This document shows, piece by piece, positions 6,672-33,900 of a stretch of DNA of 64,000 nucleotides. Every line of letters starts with the position of its first letter. Position 1 is the stretch's first letter. The stretch comes from Amyelois transitella (taxonomy: Eukaryota; Arthropoda; Insecta; Lepidoptera; Pyralidae), in NCBI RefSeq assembly GCF_032362555.1, contig NC_083519.1, forward strand, positions 7,271,501 to 7,335,500, given 5' to 3'. The notes beneath the pieces were generated by a model that searched no databases, had not been told where the DNA came from, and saw only the letters and a program-made list of their open reading frames with translations. A program made the position numbers and the translations under genes.

Positions 6672-9600
6672 ATGGCTCGAATTGTGTATTTTGTGGGTAA
6701 GTTAATTTAGTATGTATTTATTTAAATAGTTCTTTACAAATATCTAAAACTGAAAGTATATATTTTTTCACAAAGAAAGTTATGAATTTACTCGTATCTT
6801 AACTATTTTTTAACTTACTCGTTACATTACGTAATCTTAAGAGTGATATTAATTAAACATAATGTACCCTAATCTAATGGCAAACTGGTTTAGACTTTCC
6901 TTTTTAATGTTAAAAATAGAAAAGTCTGAATTTTTTACATTTTATGAAAATTTTGAGTGAGTGATGGATGGATTCTGGAATTTCTTTTTACATGTTCGAT
7001 AATGATTGATCTTCGAATTGTTTCTAAGATCGATCATTTATGCGTTAACACAAACAGCTCGGGACTTTTTATGGATAATGCGGCATTAGTTTACACGTGT
7101 ATATAAGCTCTTTTTTTAGGTATTTACACGTTATCTACACAAGCATTTATATTTATTACTATGTTGTATTTTATCTAGTGGACTTATTGAAAACATATGT
7201 TAAATAGGCTTACAAACTTGGGATTCTTTTTAGGCGATAGGCTAGCAACCTGTCTCAATTCTATCATTAAGCCAAATAGCTGAACGTGGCCATTCAGTCT
7301 TTTTAAAGACTATTGGCTCTGTCTACCCTGCAAGGTATATAGACGTGACCATATGTATGTATATGAATGAATAAGTCGTTAAAATAACTGTTTTAAACAA
7401 ATCTGAAATAATATAACTTCGAACCTATTCTTAATTACTTTCAATCTTCTCTTATTATTACTCTCTATTTCAATAGAATTCAGCCTAAGAAAGTTTGAAG
7501 TTAAAGAATACTGAACTTGCAGAAAAAGATTGATGAATGTAAATGAAGCAAAATGAGTATGCGGGGATCAAAGCAAGTAGAAAGATGTAGTCTCTATAGA
7601 CTACTACAGTGTTGTAGAGGTCGAAATTTTGAAGCTTCTAAATTCTGATTAAAAACGATAATGCATAAAAATTTCAGCATTAATCTCGCTAAGTGCACAC
7701 GCACTAGCAGGCGTGCCGTCTCGTCAAGAAGAGCACCAAATTCGCGTCGGTGACGTCACACTTTCCTTGGAGCCGCAGTTGACCGGCGGATTTCAAGTCT
7801 CCGTTATCGATGGTATGATTTGCAATATATATCTTGATACACTTGACAAGTTTCGATTGCAATACAATGCGATAAAAGTATGAGCCATTTTGAAATACGG
7901 ATCTTGAAAATTTTTATATCAACACTACCTTGCACCAAACTTACTAATACTCCTTCAAGACGCCAAACTTCTTTCTTGATAAGTTAACGTTACTAGGGAG
8001 ATACTCATTTCTCTGCACTGAATACGTGAATAGCCTGTCGAATTGGAAGTGAAAAAAAACGATTATATTTCTCGGTAAATTTGATTTCTGGTGAAATTGA
8101 TCTTGATCTTTAAGCTTTTTATAAAAGGCGACACAGAAATCTGAATGATTTATTAATCTGGACAAATTTCGGTACTTATCACATGATATCATTATATTTT
8201 TATTTTTTGACCAGGAGACGAAACCACAGAGCTGGGCTACATTGGCCGAACCCTCGTATCTTCTTTTACATCTGAGGACGTAGATGATGGAGTCTTGGTG
8301 ACTATGGGTGCAGCAACGCTTCTCATCAGTACAGTTTATGACGATTCTAAAGATGCAAGAGGAATTAAAATTAAGTGGGATGCTCCTAGTCGATTGAGAC
8401 TGGAAGACTGCATAGCTTTTGGTAAGATTAAAAATTGTATTTATTATAGTTTAAACGTAATTCCTTAAACATGTTGAATATTGCATAAGTCTCGAACTTA
8501 TATATTATTTAGTTATCTTAATCAATTCATCATAAGACGTTAAGTCGTCTTATAAAGTAGTAGTCTTTGCAGGGGGACCTAACACGTATTGGATCATCGT
8601 TAAATTTTTTACTTTTATAATGAATAAGAACATATGTTTTAGGATCGAAACACTGGTATGCTGGACCTATGCAAGTCAACCAACTGTATCCAATTGAACA
8701 GGCTCCACAGGTTTACGCCCCGTCTGTCATTAGGGAAGATGATAACGGAGCCATAATGGAAAGATATTGGCTCAATTCCGCAGGAGAATATGTATTCGTT
8801 CACCCACAAGTACCACTGTTCATTGATTACAATAACCTTTTGGACAATCACCTTTGTTTCGGAGCTCAAATAGTCGAACCTTATTCATCAAGAAGAAATC
8901 ACACAGAACTGTCATATGACTTCTGGATCTTGCCAGACGTAAAACGGGCTCATATGCACGCAATAGAAACTTACTTAGGAAAACCTTCAGGTGTGCCTGA
9001 TTTTAGAATGGTCCAGCACCCAATATGGTCAACTTGGGCACAATTCGGTAAAGAAATAAATCAAAGCAGACTTCTCGAATTTGCTGAAGAAATTAACAAC
9101 CGAGGATTCAATAATTCACAATACGAAATTGATGATGATTGGGAGACCTGCTATGGTTCACTTACTGTCAATGAAGAGAAGTTCCCAGATTTGGCCACCT
9201 TGGTGCAGCAAATCAAAGCTCTCGGTTACCGTGTGACGCTCTGGACTCATCCGTTCATAAATAAAAACTGTGAACCATGGTATTCAGAAGCCTTAAACAA
9301 TGAGTAAGTTTAGTCCTAAATTAGTTTTAATGTTTATTAAGATTAAATAGAATATCGTTAAAAGTAGTAAAACAGCATTTACAATATTTTGATGAATCCC
9401 ACTATGGATTCTTCATGGACAAATGCCAGATCTGTAAGGATAACATAAAGTAAAAAAGTGACTCTATGCTTTAGAAGACTGATAATTAAATATTGATGAC
9501 CAAAATATATAAATATTGGGCTATTGGTTTGTAATGTTAACTCATTTTCAGTTATCTAGTGCTTGACGAATCTGGCAGTCCGGACACTAAATGGTGGAAT

Positions 9601-17285: not shown

Positions 17286-18613
17286 AACACCTTTACTTAC
17301 GTTGCTTTTATTTATTCATTAGGTAGGTATCCACTGTGTCAATCTGTAAGATTTGACCCGAATATTCAGTAAATTGAGCTGCCCATTAAAGAGCAGCACA
17401 AAAATTTGTTAACCTACAGTTTACCTTAAAACAAAAACTTTTTAAAAGTAATTAATGGTATTAGCTTAATCGCAAGCTGTTTCAACATTTCATTGACATT
17501 TATAACTTACCTATTGTATTATTTAATACATATTACTTTCGTGTGCCTTTCTTATGGTCAGCTTAACAATATGTACCTACTGGTTAAATCAAACAAACAA
17601 ATTGTTTTATGAAATATTAACTAAACTATACAGTATTTTTTTTAATAATTATAAATAGTCAAATCCAACCGGAAAAAATCAGTTTTCGTTATGACCCGGG
17701 GACCGAACCTGGAATCTGCGGGTGAGGCATGTACAAAACCTAGAAAGCTTCAAAATTTTCATACACCTTTTGATAATTTACATTAAGAATATTTTTCAAA
17801 AAAAATTATGACATATAGGTACCTACCAATATGATTTCTTTCCTACGGATAAATATACCGAAATCCCTTTTTAAATGAAAGTAAAAATACATTGTATAAA
17901 AATTTGACGATTCTTATTGCTGAGAAAAATTGCGGTATACTATTACGGTCGATTGTTTTGGCTGCATTAAGAAATTAATTATTTTACTATTAATTCACCT
18001 CTAACAACATTATTACAATGAAAGTTCCATAAAATACCTGAAAGTTCCCGTAAAGGATAAAAATCCATTCATACTTCTTGTGCATTTCTTATTTTTTTTT
18101 TTCATACATAAAAAACTCAATTGAAAAACCCGGAAATAATTAATGACTCTTAAACAAATCACTGGAAACATTATATAAAACAAAACAACCTACTTTTAAT
18201 GACAACGGATTCTTATAATGCAATTGGTGCGAAAAAATACTGATTGGGTCGCAATTACGATAACAATGGATAGTAAAAAAAACTACTATCCGTATAAGTG
18301 CAGTAGATTACAGTGTACTAAACCTGTTGTTCAGTAAATTTGACGTCACCGAGTTCATTTATTTTTATATCTTTCCAGATAAGATTTTGGAATTAATAAA
18401 ATTTATATTTTACACGTATTTACGAAGATTGGGTATTCCTTTTAATTTTAGATTCAGAAGTTAGTTATGGTTACACATTACGAATGTTCGTGATAGAACA
18501 AGAAATAAATTTTGATAAATTTGTTGACTTCTTGTGTAATTTGAATAAAAATAAATATTACAAAATAGTTGAGGATTGATGCTATTTTACTACGCTTTTA
18601 TTAGCTTGGGTTG

Positions 18614-18621
18614 TATGTATG

Positions 18622-18652
<31 letters not shown>
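18614..18652 (+). repeat. (TATG)n microsatellite, left arm
   Basis: About nine uninterrupted TATG units end in GTAACGG. The mirror tract in the right arm has the same number of units, notable because such tracts normally drift quickly. Confidence 0.9.
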
Positions 18653-19577
18653 CGGAATCTTTGAGCTTAATTTTCACTGATTTCTAAACGTCTGATCAAC
18701 TTGGAACTTTGCACACGTATCAAGGACCGATGACAATGCAATATTTTGATAAGAGTTTCTCATTATCCTTATTAAAACTGCCAGGATTAATAAATTCATT
18801 TTTAGATCCTTCGTATGAGAGTAAGAGAGACAGAGATAGCACCAGTGCCAGTAATCTCCATACAAGAAACCAAGAAGTTCTGACGTATAATGAGTCAAAA
18901 AGAGATGTAATATATTTCCATATAATGTTACTATTAACCTGAGGCTTCTTTATTTCATCGCATTGCTCAATTTAGAATTACCATTAGAAACCATAGTAGA
19001 ATTAGTAGAATATTTTAAAACAATAAAAAATATATAAGTAATAAAACAAAAGTAATAAATGAAAATTGAACAACAAAATTTACAAAAATACAAGAATAAA
19101 GTTACTACCTACAGAACTTTGCGATATTTAATACGTATTTAACATATTAATGCAATTCTTGAATTAACATTAGGTATCTTTTGCCTATTTATAATAGCAA
19201 CACTCGTTTGGAAAATGAGTGACAGTTTTTTATGTCAAATAAGTTTTGCAGTAAGTTTTGATTGAATTCGATTCGAACACCTGTAAACTTTCTTTCTGTT
19301 GTTTTTTACCGGTGCCTGTGTATTTACCTATTTGCACTTTGTTTTGTGCTGTTAACTTGTCGTTATTTGGAGTTTGGAATCTTCCGTTGAGTCGAGCTTT
19401 GTTCTTCCGGATATTCGTGTGATTTTATCATCTGAGATTGGACTCTGACTGTGTTTACTGTGTTGTGCAGATATTTTGAGATAGGACTCCTGTAAAAAGT
19501 ACCTTATTATTTGAGGTAGGAGTCCCAAGTTTGTGTTTGTTTTTGTGAAAGACAGATTTTACAACAAAAGTGCCACG

Positions 19578-19626
19578 ATGTCTTCAGATAAACTTTGTTG
19601 CGTTCCTGGTTGTAAAGGCAGTGGAG
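19578..19626 (+). CDS. THAP-like first coding exon in left arm
   Basis: A 49-base exon begins with ATG after a plausible leader, encodes MSSDKLCCVPGCKGSGG (last Gly by readthrough) and ends at a strong donor (GGAG|GTATGT). The CCVPGCK start is characteristic of the first Cys pair of THAP zinc fingers, found in host DNA-binding proteins and in P-element/THAP9-like transposases. The rest of the THAP domain (WxxH, FP motif) would be in a next exon that does not exist before the palindrome centre. It is therefore an orphan first exon. Confidence 0.45.
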
Positions 19627-19794
19627 GTATGTTTGAAATATTTTTGTTCCTGTATCAATCTGCCTCTTACTCTTGTGGTTTGATTCCTGGCAAGGCCACA
19701 ATCGAAAATTATTACGTTTGCTGGATAGTCAAAAATATTATTAACAGTGATTTATCACTATAAAATTCTTTTCAACTGGGTTTAACAATCATCA

Positions 19795-19945
19795 TACATA
19801 CATATAATCACGTCTATATCCCTTGCGGGGTAGACAGAGCCAACAGTCTTGTAAAGACTGATAGGCCACATTCAGCTATTTGGCTTTAAGATAGAATTGA
19901 GATTCAAATAGTGACAGGTTGCAAGCCCATCGCCTTAAAAAGAAT
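19795..19945 (-). repeat. 265-bp family 3' fragment inside left arm
   Basis: ATACATATAATCACGTCTAT, CCCTTGCGGGGTAGACAGAG and GACAGGTTGCAAGCCCATCG follow in reverse family order. The identical mirror lies at about 20874-21024. Confidence 0.8.
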
Positions 19946-20372
19946 CATGATGATGAGAATATTATGAGATTTAATCCAATCAGGCCACATATAACTTTAA
20001 GAAAGTTAGTTGTGAAAACCTCCGGCGATGGGCGCATGGTTGCGAAAGTCTTTTCTAGTAAGATAGTTATACCAGAAGTGTTAACTTCCAAAAAATAATT
20101 GTATAAAAAAACTAAAAAACTACCCGTTTTATTGCAAATCGAACTAAAAAATAGAAAATAAATAATAGTTTAAAAAAAACTAAAAAACTACGCTTTTATT
20201 GCTAATCAAACTAAAAAATAGAAAATAAAAATTAATGACAAAGGAATTCAGTAGTAGCAAGTCGAACAATCAGTTATAGTCAGTTGTAGTAGTAATTACC
20301 TCGGATTAAAATTATAACAAAATTAAATTTATAAACAAAACAATTTAAATCAGAGTAAAAAGCGTGGGGTGC

Positions 20373-20446
20373 CTGATGTAGTAAATATTAAAATCATTCT
20401 ATTAGCATATATTTATGACAAGAGAGTTATGAAAATGAAGTAAAAT
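20373..20446. other. 74-bp spacer (loop) of the giant palindrome
   Basis: This is AT-rich unique sequence between the two arms, from CTGATGTAGTAAATATT to GAAAATGAAGTAAAAT. It has no coding content. Confidence 0.9.
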
Positions 20447-20873
20447 GCACCCCACGCTTTTTACTCTGATTTAAATTGTTTTGTTTATAAATTTAATTTT
20501 GTTATAATTTTAATCCGAGGTAATTACTACTACAACTGACTATAACTGATTGTTCGACTTGCTACTACTGAATTCCTTTGTCATTAATTTTTATTTTCTA
20601 TTTTTTAGTTTGATTAGCAATAAAAGCGTAGTTTTTTAGTTTTTTTTAAACTATTATTTATTTTCTATTTTTTAGTTCGATTTGCAATAAAACGGGTAGT
20701 TTTTTAGTTTTTTTATACAATTATTTTTTGGAAGTTAACACTTCTGGTATAACTATCTTACTAGAAAAGACTTTCGCAACCATGCGCCCATCGCCGGAGG
20801 TTTTCACAACTAACTTTCTTAAAGTTATATGTGGCCTGATTGGATTAAATCTCATAATATTCTCATCATCATG

Positions 20874-21024
20874 ATTCTTTTTAAGGCGATGGGCTTGCAA
20901 CCTGTCACTATTTGAATCTCAATTCTATCTTAAAGCCAAATAGCTGAATGTGGCCTATCAGTCTTTACAAGACTGTTGGCTCTGTCTACCCCGCAAGGGA
21001 TATAGACGTGATTATATGTATGTA
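20874..21024 (+). repeat. 265-bp family 3' fragment inside right arm
   Basis: Mirror of 19795-19945. The insertion therefore predates the event that made the palindrome. Confidence 0.8.
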
Positions 21025-21192
21025 TGATGATTGTTAAACCCAGTTGAAAAGAATTTTATAGTGATAAATCACTGTTAATAATATTTTTGACTATCCAGCA
21101 AACGTAATAATTTTCGATTGTGGCCTTGCCAGGAATCAAACCACAAGAGTAAGAGGCAGATTGATACAGGAACAAAAATATTTCAAACATAC

Positions 21193-21241
21193 CTCCACTG
21201 CCTTTACAACCAGGAACGCAACAAAGTTTATCTGAAGACAT
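21193..21241 (-). CDS. THAP-like first coding exon in right arm (mirror copy)
   Basis: This is the same 49-base exon on the opposite strand, so the two copies point toward each other and toward the 74-bp loop. It is identical to the left copy, including the donor site. Confidence 0.45.
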
Positions 21242-22166
21242 CGTGGCACTTTTGTTGTAAAATCTGTCTTTCACAAAAACAAACACAAACTTGGGACTCC
21301 TACCTCAAATAATAAGGTACTTTTTACAGGAGTCCTATCTCAAAATATCTGCACAACACAGTAAACACAGTCAGAGTCCAATCTCAGATGATAAAATCAC
21401 ACGAATATCCGGAAGAACAAAGCTCGACTCAACGGAAGATTCCAAACTCCAAATAACGACAAGTTAACAGCACAAAACAAAGTGCAAATAGGTAAATACA
21501 CAGGCACCGGTAAAAAACAACAGAAAGAAAGTTTACAGGTGTTCGAATCGAATTCAATCAAAACTTACTGCAAAACTTATTTGACATAAAAAACTGTCAC
21601 TCATTTTCCAAACGAGTGTTGCTATTATAAATAGGCAAAAGATACCTAATGTTAATTCAAGAATTGCATTAATATGTTAAATACGTATTAAATATCGCAA
21701 AGTTCTGTAGGTAGTAACTTTATTCTTGTATTTTTGTAAATTTTGTTGTTCAATTTTCATTTATTACTTTTGTTTTATTACTTATATATTTTTTATTGTT
21801 TTAAAATATTCTACTAATTCTACTATGGTTTCTAATGGTAATTCTAAATTGAGCAATGCGATGAAATAAAGAAGCCTCAGGTTAATAGTAACATTATATG
21901 GAAATATATTACATCTCTTTTTGACTCATTATACGTCAGAACTTCTTGGTTTCTTGTATGGAGATTACTGGCACTGGTGCTATCTCTGTCTCTCTTACTC
22001 TCATACGAAGGATCTAAAAATGAATTTATTAATCCTGGCAGTTTTAATAAGGATAATGAGAAACTCTTATCAAAATATTGCATTGTCATCGGTCCTTGAT
22101 ACGTGTGCAAAGTTCCAAGTTGATCAGACGTTTAGAAATCAGTGAAAATTAAGCTCAAAGATTCCG

Positions 22167-22167
<1 letters not shown>

Positions 22168-22197
<30 letters not shown>

Positions 22198-22205
22198 CAT
22201 ACATA
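22168..22205 (-). repeat. (CATA)n microsatellite, right arm
   Basis: Mirror of the left-arm tract, with equal length in the palindrome coordinate frame. Confidence 0.9.
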
Positions 22206-22279
22206 CAACCCAAGCTAATAAAAGCGTAGTAAAAAAGAGGGAGAAATGAGAGATGTGAAATATCTCAATAGGAACTCAC

Positions 22280-23934
22280 CTCCACTGTGATGTCGACATC
22301 ATGCAGTTTCTCCCTACACACATTGACAATGGTGTCGTTGAAGTTGGATATAGAATTCCATTGCTGCTGGACCAGCCGCTGCATAGATTGCATTTCCGGC
22401 TTGGCATTTGCACCGCCTATTTGTAATTGTAAACCTGTGAAGAACCACAAAAGTTTCAGTAGACAGTATACAATTATAAATAATCAATAAATCAAAACCG
22501 CCAGACCCATTGGAATATAATTTAGTATGCGTGTAGTTAAAAACCCGCGTTTCAACATACGCTACGGCATTTGGCGAAATTTTCCGTTTTACGCGGTCAT
22601 AGCCGCGTTCGCTCTCTAGTCTACTTGTAAAACAGCTTCAGATAATTTCATATTAAATTCATATAATTCATAGATGTTTTACAGATGTATATTTAATTGA
22701 CACTATTTATACAAAATTCAAGCACACTGTAATCCTGGCTTTATTCCTTACATAATAAACAGACTCAAGAGGTCAAGTTTAATAATCAGAGACAGTTGAC
22801 ACAGGTGGGCAGAGACATCATTCAATTTGCCACGCACGCGATCCCTGCATACTTCTTTCACATTCATAATTCTCTTCATTCAAGCTCCTCAGTTTCGGGT
22901 ACTCTTGAACTGGCCAGAAATTTTTTACCTGTGTTAATGTGCCTTGCCATAATAAACAACTGTGTGGCTGTCACATAATCCTCAGCTTCAATGGAAGTCC
23001 ATATTTTTTCAGGGATCTCCATCAACAGCTTGACTTGCACTGCTATACTTTGCGCTGGATTTATGTTGAACTGAAAACTGTATTACCAATTCTTAATTTT
23101 ATAGCTGTGACATTTTAGGTAAAAGTCACAGGTAAGAATTAAGTCCAAAGACAATTTAAAGATTCTAAGGATAACAACATTAATAATCCTAGTTTTACAA
23201 AATTTTGTGTTGTGGGTTTAGATTATTAAGATTAAGTTTGGATTTGATTATAAAATAGTAAGAAAATTTAAACAGTTGTACCATATTATGTTAATATACA
23301 AGTCACAAGATACCTTGGCTGTTCAGGCCTTTTGTCAATCTTGAATCCAACCAAGTGTGTATTATGAAGGTTCCTACATGCTGATATCATCTGACTTATA
23401 TGTTCCAAAGTACTGGATGTTGTTTCTTTCATTTCCTCTATGGTATCCGCCGCATGTATGAGATCCCGGTACCTTTCTCTAAAAGTGTTAATAGTTTATT
23501 AATTAGTTAAAATACAAGTAAATTTACTTAAAGAAATCATATTTAGGGAATTCAGCCTGGTAAAAGGTTGGCTCACATGTATGCTAAACCTATAAGCTAT
23601 CATGCAATGTTTGATTAATTTGAATAAAGCAAAAAGAATGCAGGGACTGACAAGTGGAAATATTTAGTCTCTGCCCCCCTCTTGGCGAGGAGGAGGAGGT
23701 ATATGCTAAGCATTTAATGAGAATTGGTAAGATGTTTACTGCATTATAACATAAAATTTTTGGTTCAGAATGATTGGAATATACATGCATAGCATACCCA
23801 ACCATAGCACGTAATTCTTCCCTCTTTCTCTCGATTTCATATTGCAATTTCTTTTGAACTTGGTCCACATCGCTGACGAAGTAGTTTTGAAACAGTTCTT
23901 CTGGAACTATGTCCAGTAAGTTCGGCTGTGACAT
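22280..23934 (-). CDS. COG1: COG1, N-terminal four exons only (conserved oligomeric Golgi complex subunit 1)
   Basis: COG1 is a lobe-A subunit of the COG tether needed for retrograde vesicle fusion at the Golgi. Four coding exons join in frame: 23798-23934, 23314-23478, 23077-22929 and 22434-22280 (202 codons). The protein starts MSQPNLLDIVPEELF. It contains ERKREELRAMVGERYRDLI across the first junction, AADTIEEM, LHNTHLVGFKID, IPEKIWTSIEAEDY, TATQLFIMARHI and VQQQWNSISNF, which is the family order. Animal COG1 is several times longer (roughly 900-1000 residues). After the GAG|GTGAGT donor only 45 bases of intron remain before the palindrome, and no later COG1 exon was recognised to the left. 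The gene is truncated, rearranged or misassembled here. Confidence 0.88.
22790..22920 (-). repeat. LINE-tail fragment in COG1 intron 3
   Basis: AAGAGTACCCGAAACTGAGG, GAGAATTATGAATGTGAAAG and AAGTATGCAGGGATCGCG read on the - strand. It begins about 20 bases inside the intron and, being in the gene's own orientation, can mimic an exon extension (RVPETEEL). Confidence 0.7.
23600..23700 (+). repeat. LINE-tail fragment in COG1 intron 1
   Basis: AAAGAATGCAGGGACTGACA, AGTGGAAATATTTAGTCTC and TGCCCCCCTC are remnants of the RTE-like 3' end. Confidence 0.5.
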
Positions 23935-24936
23935 TTTTGTATTATATATTAAGTTTTATTAATAATATAACATATAACATTCCTATTTGTATTGAGATAA
24001 CAAGACCATTAAATATTAAAATCACGGAAGGAAAGAAAACTAAAGTTTACCTACAGTTTATGTCAACGCAATACAATGTCAATGTCACTGTCAAATGGAA
24101 AAATATTTTTTTTCTTCATTGTGGACTGACAAAGATCTAGTTATAAATTTCTAATTTAAACTTTCGCGTTTCTTTTTATACAGTTAAACGCGCACGTAAC
24201 GTATCTTTATTTTATCACGGACGTTTCGAATCACGTTACATTGATCCATGGTTACCGTGCAATAGCTGTAGATGCTTTAATTTGTACTTTCTCGGGACTT
24301 TTTGCCCCAAAAAAATTATATAAATTCGTTATACTAATATCGCTCCTTCGTTATACTATATAACTCTTCAATACTCATGCTTGTTTGTGGACGGACACTT
24401 ACTACTTAATCAATAGTCTACAATTATGGAGTTATTGACACGTATACGTTCCTAGGACAGTTTTGGGCCATCTCCTTTATAAGTACGTAGATAATAAATT
24501 TGTTTACGACATGTCTGTCATAACATGTCATATACATTATCCTAAAATTATTTTCCTTTATTGTTCTGAATTTACAGCTAAAAGATAAAATTATAGTGAA
24601 TTGAGCACAGCCAAGAATATATTATAAAATTTTCAATTGATTACCACCGAGGAAGCCCAATGAAAGAAATTTCCGAAGTCCGTACCGACATATTGATTAT
24701 AACTATTGTCAGCCGCTATTTACCTGGATTTTGATTTGGATTGGATTTACCTTTGGAAATACAAAGTTTTATTAATAACTTACATATTATAGTGCTCACA
24801 TAATTGTTGTTTCAAGGAAAAATACCTAGATCATGTATGCACGCCAGCAAGTTCAATGTCATCCAAGGATTTTCGATTTTCTATTTTTTCTGATGTACTC
24901 ACAAACTTTCGCATTTACGCCTAATATTAGTAGGAT
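23935..24936. other. COG1 upstream region and flank of the retrotransposon
   Basis: No gene is visible. The first 250 bases should contain the COG1 promoter. The right end (TCACAAACTTTCGCATTTAC, ATATTAGTAGGAT) is the typical 3' terminus of a lepidopteran interspersed element lying directly before the retrotransposon. Confidence 0.45.
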
Positions 24937-27900
24937 TTAGTTTTCTTTTTTATTGAGTCTTTTTATACTTTGTAATTTTATTACCTCTTTCCTGAACTGC
25001 GCCTGCTGTCCCCCCATGCAGTGTTGTGTCTGTGCTAGAACTTTCACAACACTAAGAGGTTTACATATTCATCAGTCCCGCATCCATCAAGTACGTATTA
25101 TCCAATCCACTCCATTACCTTATTCTGCCAATTGTAGCAACACACCCTCAGATAATACAGTTCCCCTACAGACCCTTCTATGCCAACTCAAACATAACAC
25201 ACCAATCATCAAACGAGTGCCCCGGGGTGCGAGAGCCCCCGTAGCCGACGCTCTATCGGAAATCATAAACACCTGCGTTAATTCAAACAATCTAGAGTCG
25301 TGGCAGAAACTTCTTACATTTTCATTTAAAATTTTACACGTTTCTGAAAACAATGACAATCTCACTCTTACGAGAAAAATAAAAAATAATATTGCCTCAC
25401 AAAATCTTCCGTCAAATCAAAAGTTCAAGATCACCACAACATATAGTAATGATATCTCGAAAAAAGTTGAACAAAAAATACACGACGGGGATCTTAGAGG
25501 TGCTACCCGTCTGTTGTTTTCTAACGACAAAATTGCACCAGATACACCAGAGACCTCAGCTGCGCTTCTATCCAAACACCCCCCAGGTCCTTCCACTCCT
25601 CTGTTTGTAGACCCTCCAACAGATTCTTCCGCTTGTCTTCATGCTTCTGAGAAAGACGTAAAAGAAGCCCTTGCCTCATTTCCCAAAGGATCGGCGTCTG
25701 GCCTTGACGGTATCTCCCCGCAGCATTTGATAGATTTGACCAGTTACGGCACTGGAGTAGCGGGTAATAATGTCCTAACAAGCATTACCAATCTAATTAA
25801 TCTTATGCTGCTGGGAGATGTCTGTCAGGACGTGTCAGCGGTGATCTATGGGGCGAATCTTATTGCCCTGACCAAAAAGGACGGTGGTATACGCCCCATT
25901 GCTGTAGGGTCTACGTTCAGACGGTTAGCTGCTAAAGTGTGCGTTCGGCTCACTCGCCATAAATTACAAAATCTTTTTGAGCCTGTACAGGTTGGTTTCG
26001 GCACACGTGGAGGGTGTGAAGCTGCAGTGCATGCCGTGCGCACCTTTACTCATTCCAATATGTGCGAAGTTCTTTTAAAACTAGATGTCAAAAACGCCTT
26101 TAATTCGGTCAACAGGGATACCTTGCTGAATGAAATTAAATTGCATGTTCCGGAATTGTACAACTTTTTACTACAATGCTACCATACTCCTTCAAAATTA
26201 GTACACAAATATAATGAGATTGATTCGGCCACGGGTTGTCAGCAGGGTGATCCCCTCGGTCCAGCTATTTTCAGTTTGGCAATTAACTCAATAATTCACG
26301 GTTTAAATTCAAAATTAAACGTATGGTACCTTGATGACGGAACCCTAGGTGGAGACTTTAAAACAGTTTTGAAAGATTTAATTGATATAAAAAACAAGTT
26401 CTCTAATATTGGTCTGGAATTAAATTTTGATAAATGTGAATTATATATTTCTGAAACTTTAAATACATCTTTGGCATCTCAAATTATTCAAAATTTTAAT
26501 AACATAGCCCCTAATATTAAAATTTTGACAAAAGATAGTCTCTACCTACTTGGTTCACCGATATTTGATGAGGCCATACCTTCCCTTCTTAGTAAATCAA
26601 TTTCAAAATTCACTGACTATTCGGACCGCCTCACCAAAATTAGCAGTCACTCTGCGTTATTCGTTCTAAAATTCTGTTTATTCATACCAAAATTAACTTA
26701 CCTGCTCCGTTGTTGCCCTATTTGGAAATACCCCACTTTGGTCCAACCTATTGATCAACTTTTAAAAAATAAAATTGAATTAATACTCAACATAAGTTTT
26801 GGCGAAGAGGCATGGACCCAAGCCTCCCTTCCAATTAGGAATGGAGGCTTAGGAATCCGAAAAATTTCTTGTGTAGCCCTGCCGGCTTTCTTGTCCTCTA
26901 TCCACAGCACATCTAATCTCGTAGGTAATATTCTTAAGGTCCCTGCGACTACAAACTACGAGATTGCGTGCTTGGATGAGGCCACAAATGCCTGGCTAAC
27001 CGGACCGAGTCCAAATCTTCCCTCCAAGCTACAAAGCCAAAGGGCCTGGGATTCCATTTCATCTAATTTTATTTTCAGTTCTCTTTTGGAAAATTCCTTT
27101 AGCAGAGATAGGGCTAGACTATTAGCCGTGTCCAGACCAGAGTCCGGACATTGGCTTCATGCCTATCCATCTCCTGCTTTAGGAACTTTCCTAAATCCCC
27201 TAACTCTTCGCGTGGCTGTCGGTCTCAGAGTCGGGGCTGAAGTCTGTGTGGACCACAGCTGTGCCTCTTGTGGGGTTTCTGTTGATCGCCTAGGTCACCA
27301 TGGTCTTGCCTGCTCCTCGGGTGCCGGCCGCCAATCCCGCCATGCTGCTCTCAATGACATCCTGAGACGGGCGCTTGTCAGCGCCGACGTCCCCGTGGCC
27401 CTTGAGCCGCAGATCGTGCGAGACGATGGCAGGCGCCCCGACGGGATGTCATTGATACCCTGGCGCATGGGTCGCGCGCTGGTCTGGGACGCCACTTGCG
27501 CAGATACGCTGGCGGCGTCCTACCTCCCTGCGACCAGTAAACAGGCTGGTGCGGCGGCGGACGCCCGGGAGCGCTTCAAGACCAATAAATACAGTTGTCT
27601 TGGCACCCAGTACGAGTTCGTACCGTTTGGTGTCGAGACACTTGGTCCTTGGGGCAAGGGCGCGCGGGAGCTCCACAAGGCGCTCAGCAAACGCCTGAGG
27701 GAGGCAACAGGAGACCCTCGCGCGGGCAGCTTTCTTGCGCAGCGTATTGCTATTGCAATACAGCGCGGGAATGCTGCCTGCGTGATGGGAACCCTTCCTA
27801 GGGGTCCAAATTTAAACAATAATGTATTTAGCTTGTAATTTAGAATAGTTTTTTTTTTATTATTATTATAAAATAATTAATATTAGTTTAAATTATTTAA

Positions 27901-30933: not shown

Positions 30934-33900
30934 TATTAGCAGTATTAGTCGCACTCACTCATGGAGCGGCAGTAGATATCACAGTGCTTGATGTCCCGGG
31001 AATCAAACTCCGACTAGAAAACAACCCATTCGGGGGACTTAATTTTGTTTTAACACGAAGTAAGTACAGCAATTAGTGGGTATTATTTTAATCCTGTGTA
31101 TAATTCCGTGGCTAAAAATAAAGATCGCTGCTATTTAATCCAGTCATAATAATATCAGAATATTATGTTGCATTTACAATTATTATTATTCAAAAGTATA
31201 CCAAATTTAATCAATTCTATCATTAAGCCAAACCGCTGAACACGGCCTATCAGTCATTCCAACACAGTTGGCTCTGCCTGCCCCGCAAGGAATTAAGACG
31301 TGATAATATATAATGTATCTTTCCTAAATATTAAGCACAAACTATGCAGTCAAGTAATGTAGTTCTTTTTAAGTTGTATATCCGTTGACCACTGATGCTC
31401 TATCTATAGATTCTCAAATAACTAATAATGTTACATTAACAACACAAAAATTTACATATTGTATGTACTAATTATTAGTAGTGGCTACCTTACCTATTAA
31501 CACAAACATATTTTTTCCTATAACAGAAGGCATAACCGAAGTTATATCAGTAATCGGTCGTCGCACCGGCGCCATAAAAGATGTTGTTCAAGACGAAGAT
31601 GTCGTCATACAATTCGCTAATGACACAACAGTGAGGATCGCTACAGAGGAGATTGTTGGAGAGAGGAGAGGCCAAGTAGTCACGCTGACGTGGGAGGCGC
31701 CTAAAGGACAACGCCTGGAAGACTGCGTCAACTTAGGTGAGTTAGGTGCTGAACAATCTTATACAGACTTTAAAGGGTGGAGGTGGGTGTTTTTGGGACT
31801 CCAATATTTTCATTACTGTTTCCTTATCTGGAATTTTCTTGTAAAGCTGTACTGCGTTGAAAATAGGTATAAAGTAAGTCATAACTTAATGAGTGGTGGA
31901 GGTTTTATGCAACTTCCTTTAATGTGAACTGCTGGTAAAAAGACACATCCTCTGTGGAATAGTTCCGTAAGAAATTATGTAACAAAAGTTTCATTATCAT
32001 CGCCCTGGCGTTTGTTTTGTGTAGGTATATCTTTCCTTGTGATAACTACACAAAAGAAATTGCGCATCACACAGTGCAACTTGTTGCAAATTAAGTATAA
32101 TTTAGGTATCTACTTGTTAGGAAAGACGAGAAGTAGAAATAATGTTAGCAAATAAAATCTTAAAGTTTCTATCGAAGTAAATTTGCAGATAGATAGCGAA
32201 AAGTAAGATTTGTTTTAAGAAATTAGAATTGACTAGACAACGGATTCAATTCGTCAAAGACGTGAGTCTCATGGGAGATGCCAAATGGAAGCTGAACGAG
32301 TAATGTGAATCGTGATTGGGGTATCAATTTTGTTTTTATTTTAAAAGTAATATTTCGTTAAATTTGCTTTAGGTATTTTTAATTTTTTTTAAAACTTTGA
32401 TCAACTCTCATATATGTAGATTTTTTTGTCTTATAAATTTTAAAGCTTTTTCTAGGTCGCTTGTATTATTATCAATACAAAGATGTTAGTTTTGTATAGC
32501 ACCGGTAAGCGACGACAACGGTAGAATATTTTTTATTTACACGATAAAATATAGTTGATATTTCATGCTTCATTTTAATCATACAAACTATTATATTGGT
32601 GGCAGGCTCCAAGCACTGGTACGGCGGACCGCAGCAGAAGCGGCAGTACTGGCCAATTGAGCGACTCGTCCTTCCAAACTACTCATACGTCACCAAAGAA
32701 GCAGATAACTGTGGAGTCGCTGAACCTTACTGGCTAAACTCCGATGGTGTCTTCTATTATTTCGACAAAAAAGTACCCTTATTCGTCGACCAAAACGACC
32801 TAGAAAAGAATGCAGCGTGCTTCATAGCACAAATAAAAGCACCGTATACGAACAAAAGGGAACGCAACGATTTAATATACGCAATTGGAATTTTCGAAGA
32901 CGTACGGAAAGCACACGAATATGCTGTCGATAAATACTTGAACAAAACCAGCGGTATACCTGATGAGAGGATGATTACGCATCCAATTTGGTCTACTTGG
33001 GCAAGGTATAAGAGAGATGTCAGTCATGACGTAGTGTTAAAATTCGCTGACGAAATCAAGGCTAATGGTTTCTCCAACAGTCAGCTAGAGATTGATGACC
33101 TCTGGGAGACTTGTTATGGATCTCAAACAGTAGACAAGACGAGGTTTCCGAATATGAACCATACTGTGGCCAGCTTGAAAAAGAAAGGATTTAGAGTTAC
33201 TATTTGGACACATCCTTTCATTAACAAGAACTGCGAGCCTTATTATACCCAAGCTTTGGACAAAGGGTAAGTTAAACGTAATAAGTACATACAACATATA
33301 CACACGTATTTGTAAACATATTATACCTTGATGAAGTAGACTACGCAGTATCAATGATTGTTGTTGAACAAGTTGACATGTAAAGATAAGAGATGGCATC
33401 TTTAATGCAAGTTCTAACTTCTAAAAGTAAATTCACATACTACTTTAACTCTGAAATTTTTTATCAGATACCTGGTGTCTTCAGAATATGGTTCCGTAGA
33501 AACGAGCTGGTGGAATGACAACGAGACGACGACAGCATACATCGACTTCACTAAGCCTGAAGCGCGGAACTGGTACATTGACCGGTTGAAGAGTTTACAG
33601 GAAGCCACTGGGATTGACAGCTTCAAGTTTGACGGTGGGGAGTCTAGTTGGTCTCCTCAGGTAAATATAACGAAATTTCACTAACGAAACCAAGAAAGTA
33701 AGAACTTTAACTCTATGGATAAGGTAGACTTTCTCATGATGCAATTCCCAATTGCATTCTTTGCTGTTGACTTCTAAGTTCAGGCTCATTTAAAGGCAGT
33801 CATTTATACTTAACATGCCATGTAAGAATAGTTTTGCATGGTCAGTTTCCTTCGGGTCAGGTCAGTTTAGAAACTATGGAATTTTTACTACGGCTTTTGC

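Follow-up and report, generated by a model that had tools for sequence, protein, structure and literature searches.

The window analysed here, a stretch of 64,000 nucleotides from the pyralid Amyelois transitella (NCBI RefSeq assembly GCF_032362555.1, contig NC_083519.1, positions 7,271,501 to 7,335,500), carries at 18585-22234 a 3.65-kb palindrome, which we read, with a probability of roughly 0.55, as a Helentron-type (HINE-like) transposon, without a long coding frame, that was copied by fold-back on its own strand and inserted once. The arms belong to a multi-copy family in which the other copies end in a partial fold-back arm, and full extension of that arm to the 5' terminus was found in one of the 40 copies examined, namely the window copy. 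More tentatively, the palindrome may be a natural trace of an event in which a displaced Helentron-type strand, primed by its own 3' hairpin, acted as template as far as the free 5' end, giving a hairpin duplex that could be inserted.

Base-by-base comparison of the left arm (18585-20372) with the right arm (20447-22234) gave 1788 bp each of exact reverse complement, with 0 mismatches. Each position p from 18585 through 20372 is complementary to 40819-p, and pairing is lost immediately outside the arms, with a mismatch at 18584 and another at the inner position 20373; the earlier note on this DNA, which had described indistinguishable 1788-bp arms, coordinates summing to 40819 and two outer flanks that differ, was accurate on all of these points. 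Independent inverted-repeat detection returned the same arm pair, its 1791-nt call reflecting chance matches at 18582-18583 beyond the mismatch. A perfect inverted repeat of 1788 bp was judged to need no chance model. The 74-bp spacer between the arms (20373-20446, no strand assigned), which forms the hairpin loop, was delimited by arm pairing, by copy alignment and by the same independent detection.

Counting the arm elsewhere in the genome, as the earlier note had proposed, proved to be the key check. Searching all 33 contigs of the assembly (327 Mb) uncovered many copies: the two window arms and at least 39 other loci, a lower bound from a sample biased toward near copies, as the best 40 of 2,236 first-look candidates were scored. 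All 39 other loci, cited below by handles such as L009 where needed, were read with their flanks and showed 97.7-100% identity to the window arm; 38 of them are full-length, aligning from arm position 1 or 3 through 1788, and in the partial copy L047 the alignment starts at position 235. With a length of ~2.08 kb, the usual element consists of a TTTT-ACTACGC 5' end, the arm, the 74-bp spacer and 160-226 bp of inverted arm, followed by flanking DNA, so that the other copies end in a fold-back arm with a stem of 160-226 bp and a 74-bp loop. Their 3' ends fall at arm 1563-1629 in 39/39 cases (24 at 1570-1577 and nine at 1586-1588). There is no frame of at least 130 amino acids inside the element, which from its sequence is apparently a non-coding rolling-circle-type transposon. 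The arms also contain a dispersed repeat (19793-19946, plus strand; mirror 20873-21026), matches to which are scattered across 84 kb of the palindrome locus; the earlier claim of an older repeat insertion within the arms did not survive, as the repeat is part of the family and the 38 full-length copies align throughout the arm.

Aligned with the 39 other copies, the window copy resolved into two parts on the minus strand. The canonical-length HINE-like body occupies 20155-22234, with its 5' terminus at 22234, the arm running to 20447, then the spacer, then the hairpin arm to ~20155, which is where many other copies end. The extra stretch, 18585-20154, continues the 3' hairpin arm to the exact 5' terminus and is present in 0/39 other copies. 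The left-arm part equal to the usual hairpin stem, ~216 bp, lies at 20157-20372 (plus strand), its other strand being 20447-20662. The right end was assigned as the original 5' end because of the spacer orientation, which matches 37/39 copies with the right arm read as the 5' arm, and because of the T-run at the junction. In the remaining two copies, L033 and L043, the spacer is reversed, as though the hairpin loop had flipped.

The two junctions differ in these T-runs. The right end carries six T (22231-22236, minus strand), which would comprise four of the element and two of the target, and the left end carries a run of exactly four T following an A (18585-18588, plus strand), with no target T. 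Among 38 copies (without L047, and with L025, whose 5' end is doubled, counted at the outer of the two, 5 T), the run before ACTACGC numbers 5 T in 23 copies, 6 in eight, 7 in one, 10 in one and 2 in five, and never 3 or 4; the base ahead of aligned position 1 is T in 38/38 copies and A at the window left end. On this comparison the right end resembles an ordinary 5' junction, unlike the left end, where copying seems to have continued to the final base of the element and the product to have been joined to host sequence whose first base on that strand is T. The attribution of TTTT draws on the copy L018, for whose host repeat a loose pattern search listed 29 insertion-free copies, with a T-run at the site of 6 in 14/29, of some other length from 1 to 7 in 10 and unmeasured in five. 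At L018 the runs count 5 T at the 5' junction and 12 at the 3' junction, no more than 8 of the latter being the element's own; if the site had an unaltered 6 T, the element would account for at least three of the 5' T. On balance, TTTT looks to be largely element sequence.

The extension ends exactly at TTTT-ACTACGC, the expected end of a displaced strand, and because the copy stops exactly at the 5' terminus, such a strand is the natural template. The proposed course would begin with a strand being peeled off. Either the 3' end of this strand or the strand growing at the hairpin would anneal to the stem, where a primer is readily at hand, and prime synthesis on the displaced strand; synthesis would halt where the template ends, at the free 5' terminus, and the full-length hairpin duplex would then be inserted between CTCTT and TAGC (minus strand). 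This would be an occasional slip and not the routine of the family. For the canonical Helitron Helraiser, the accessible portions of the published accounts describe a peeled-off strand, synthesis at the donor site and a 3' hairpin ending transposition (PMC5876387, PMC4778049).

Several observations weigh against this origin. According to the available text of PMC5876387, Helraiser circles must be double-stranded to integrate, and a hairpin duplex is not among the integrating forms described there. A single such locus is known, 1/40 copies, the others being the best-scored of 2,236 candidates, and the palindrome is known here from assembled sequence alone. L009 and the arm are identical across 1786 aligned bases, and two separate copies could therefore give identical arms. 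As for the junctions, TTTT is absent as aligned bases 1-4 in 6/38 copies, its assignment to the element depends on one locus (L018) and an assumed 6-T site, and for Helitron2 the part of PMC5148889 at hand states TTTT to be target sequence. Finally, the stem, by its variants, is not regenerated at each jump: the stem arms are identical over the columns compared in 26/39 pairs, and the 23 variant cells in 39 stems lie in both arms in three cases, in the 5' arm only in eight and in the 3' arm only in 12, five of the last (L026, L041) being possible register artefacts from spacer indels. Routine fold-back copying at each jump was ruled out on this basis, as stem variants are mostly one-armed and some recur one-sidedly in more than one copy.

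The arm is a young transposon, and the window copy, judged by substitutions, is part of a recent burst. Across 39 arms (the window and 38 full-length copies; 741 pairs, indels uncounted), the median pairwise difference is 11 substitutions, and only one pair is free of substitutions, L029/L030, whose flanks also match, over no less than 1.2 kb on the 5' side and 1.5 kb on the 3' side. The unlinked copy L009 equals the window arm at 1786/1786 aligned bases and differs only at positions 1-2; the window arms have six non-majority substitutions in common with L009, four of these also with L010, and these common substitutions together with the low divergence place the window copy in the burst. The earlier note was right to propose a recent inverted duplication, and gene conversion is not needed for the identity of the arms. 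The (TATG)n microsatellite (18612-18651, plus strand; mirror 22168-22207) is indeed of equal length in the two arms; the weight that the earlier note gave to this equality, on the ground that such arrays drift fast, does not stand, since nine TATG units are the commonest count and occur in 11/38 other copies. Arm identity and equal TATG count were accordingly rejected as decisive proof of self-copying, and arm identity is weak evidence because L009 matches the arm equally well.

By its ends, as read in the copy alignment, the element resembles the Helentron/HINE (Helitron2-type) group. The usual copy starts with TTTT-ACTACGCTTTTATTAGC, with (TATG)n soon after, and ends with the inverted repeat partner, the palindrome TAGTTTTTTTTAAACTA and an AT-rich tail. 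HINE subterminal inverted repeats measure 12-15 bp and lie 2-4 nt from the 5' end; here ACTACGCTTTTATTAGC (22214-22230, minus strand) starts from position 5, 4 nt from the 5' terminus, and its inverted partner ACTACGCTTTTATTGC, at arm 1603-1618, has 14 bp in common with it. The 3' subterminal inverted repeat (20187-20202, plus strand) shares ACTACGCTTTTATT inverted. The short palindrome that HINEs carry near the 3' end is represented by TAGTTTTTTTTAAACTA (20166-20182, minus strand; arm 1582-1598), with a 6-bp stem and a 5-nt loop, which is complete in 25/39 copies (3' ends 1563-1577) and cut or absent in 14 (ends 1586-1629). A DNA fold of the spacer and 3' arm, which left out the partner arm and bears on this small palindrome only, was no better than shuffles (z 0.00). 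T-rich insertion sites, a further HINE trait, are seen in the T preceding aligned position 1 in all copies compared and in a T fraction of 0.42 at -10 to -2 versus 0.33 further upstream, and L012 and L018 sit at the T-run of a known repeat.

One HINE feature was found displaced: the 3' repeat of HINE mite elements lies 38-60 bp from the 3' end (PMC4067079, as far as its accessible text goes), whereas here the distance is 27-32 nt (3' ends at arm 1571-1576), which fits the 20-40 bp of the Helitron2-type FoHeli elements in the available part of PMC5148889. Because of this spacing the element was filed with the Helentron/Helitron2 group and not with the mite families. A terminal inverted repeat DNA transposon or miniature inverted-repeat transposable element does not fit the variable 3' ends (arm 1563-1629), and in place of fixed terminal inverted repeats the 39 copies are asymmetric with subterminal ones. 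No target-site duplication is visible at the window palindrome, where T-runs could mask a short one. The earlier note had held this to argue against a standard transposon, a claim overturned by the 39 other copies; the want of a visible duplication is no argument, because no target-site modification was found for the Helentron/HINE class, at least in the accessible portion of PMC4067079.

The main rival to fold-back copying is that two sibling copies were inserted tail to tail (right one minus, left one plus) and that recombination between their stem segments, which lie in like orientation, deleted the DNA between; we consider this unlikely. The family is young and multi-copy, identical siblings exist, as L009 demonstrates, and self-insertion giving composites, opposite orientation included, has been proposed for the related fungal FoHeli elements (PMC5148889, in the part available). 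Each outer end of the palindrome is an element 5' end, as two such insertions would leave it, and the left end would have its target were TTTT part of the target site, the status given to it in Helitron2 (PMC5148889, same part); unless that is so, the left junction goes unexplained, its four T after an A being a state found in 0/38 copies. The scenario also requires two opposite insertions, a deletion and identical copies, in a family where one pair of 741 is substitution-free.

An assembly product, in which reads from an ordinary 2.08-kb element were wrongly connected via the hairpin stem or two loci were fused, is rather improbable, even though many near-identical copies, each with an inverted stem, are a well-known pitfall of assembly and the continuity of a gene across the locus was not shown: exons of a COG1-like gene lie to the right, and no later COG1 exons were found to the left. 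Against it, the flanks differ, the contig is 10.9 Mb long, plus-strand GH31-like frames on either side suit a continuous locus, and, had two normal copies been mis-joined, each end should show a normal 5' junction, contrary to the abnormal left end. In-place fold-back repair, whereby a post-insertion break in the hairpin let the end copy the element's own long arm, is very improbable. The stem would supply the pairing needed, and there are hints of occasional conversion in two variants that occur on both arms of the stem (L027; L029/L030), but copying on the chromosome should run past the 5' terminus into flanking DNA, and the extension stops there to the base.

Among known systems, HINE/DINE-1 elements, which are non-autonomous Helentrons, are alike in the subterminal inverted repeats located 4 nt in from the 5' terminus, the small 3' palindrome, the microsatellite, the T at the insertion site and the want of a long coding frame (PMC4067079, accessible text); the present family differs in its 160-226 bp inverted 3' stem and 74-bp loop, and the window copy in being a complete palindrome. 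FoHeli elements of Fusarium share terminal inverted repeats that are asymmetric, with ~20-40 bp between the 3' repeat and the end of the element, although no full-length palindrome is described in the available part of PMC5148889. Helraiser shares the peeled-off strand, the 3' hairpin terminator and aberrant 3' ends but is a canonical Helitron with insertion between A and T and TC/CTAG ends (PMC4778049, PMC5876387, accessible portions). No full-length palindromic Helitron or Helentron appeared in the titles and abstract openings of the papers listed for the terms searched in the open literature, and Rfam at gathering thresholds gave no match in the window. Foldback transposons have long inverted repeats around a short loop, as in the window palindrome; compared with them, the other copies of the present family are asymmetric with Helentron-like ends.

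Some further features of the family were noted. Two 67-bp tandem units at 20093-20229 (and mirror), each containing a variant form of the element's 3' end in inverted orientation, suggest a nested ancestry of the hairpin. The copies L019 and L039 have ~110 bp of 3' flank in common, with no listed 5' flank match, possibly through 3' read-through or through insertion beside the same repeat. The stretch 19578-19637 (and mirror) reads MSSDKLCCVPGCKGSGGMFE, which resembles the start of a THAP-domain protein and is perhaps a captured 5' exon. L025 has a partly duplicated 5' end, with two ACTACGC ends in tandem, resembling the double 5' termini of FoHeli elements (PMC5148889, available part).

To the right of the palindrome, the first exons of the COG1-like gene (22275-23955, minus strand) encode a Vps51/EXO84/COG1 N-terminal domain, two frames matching that family at 32.1 bits (cut-off 24.2) and, just below it, 22.5. 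Three exons match a human COG1 query, and on our reading a fourth ends near 22275. To the left, the search for later exons gave nothing convincing among the best 25 matches listed, the best at ~20 bits, below the 23.9 bits of a reversed-query control under more permissive settings; one candidate later frame gave no alignment, and Phmmer against solved structures returned three weak, unrelated matches. Continuity of COG1 across the palindrome was not shown, and the gene may have been interrupted or split, or have diverged beyond detection. The tandem plus-strand frames resembling GH31 glycosidases (8624-9307, by Pfam; 32548-33270, L048 and L049, by eye) flank the palindrome on either side and occur further upstream. 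A 965-amino-acid frame at 24941-27838 (plus strand), with a reverse transcriptase domain and, by eye, a zinc-finger-like start, is GC-richer than its surroundings and is probably a non-LTR (long terminal repeat) retrotransposon.

Long perfect palindromes are generally fragile. Detailed transposition experiments concern one reconstructed canonical Helitron, Helraiser (PMC4778049, PMC5876387), and for the Helitron2 type there is joined-ends evidence in Fusarium (PMC5148889), so far as the accessible parts of these sources go; Helitron2/Helentron movement has been little tested. If the fold-back origin is true, the window palindrome would be a rare natural trace of an intermediate, its junctions recording self-priming on the peeled-off strand, and would mark one route from an ordinary multi-copy transposon to a long perfect palindrome.

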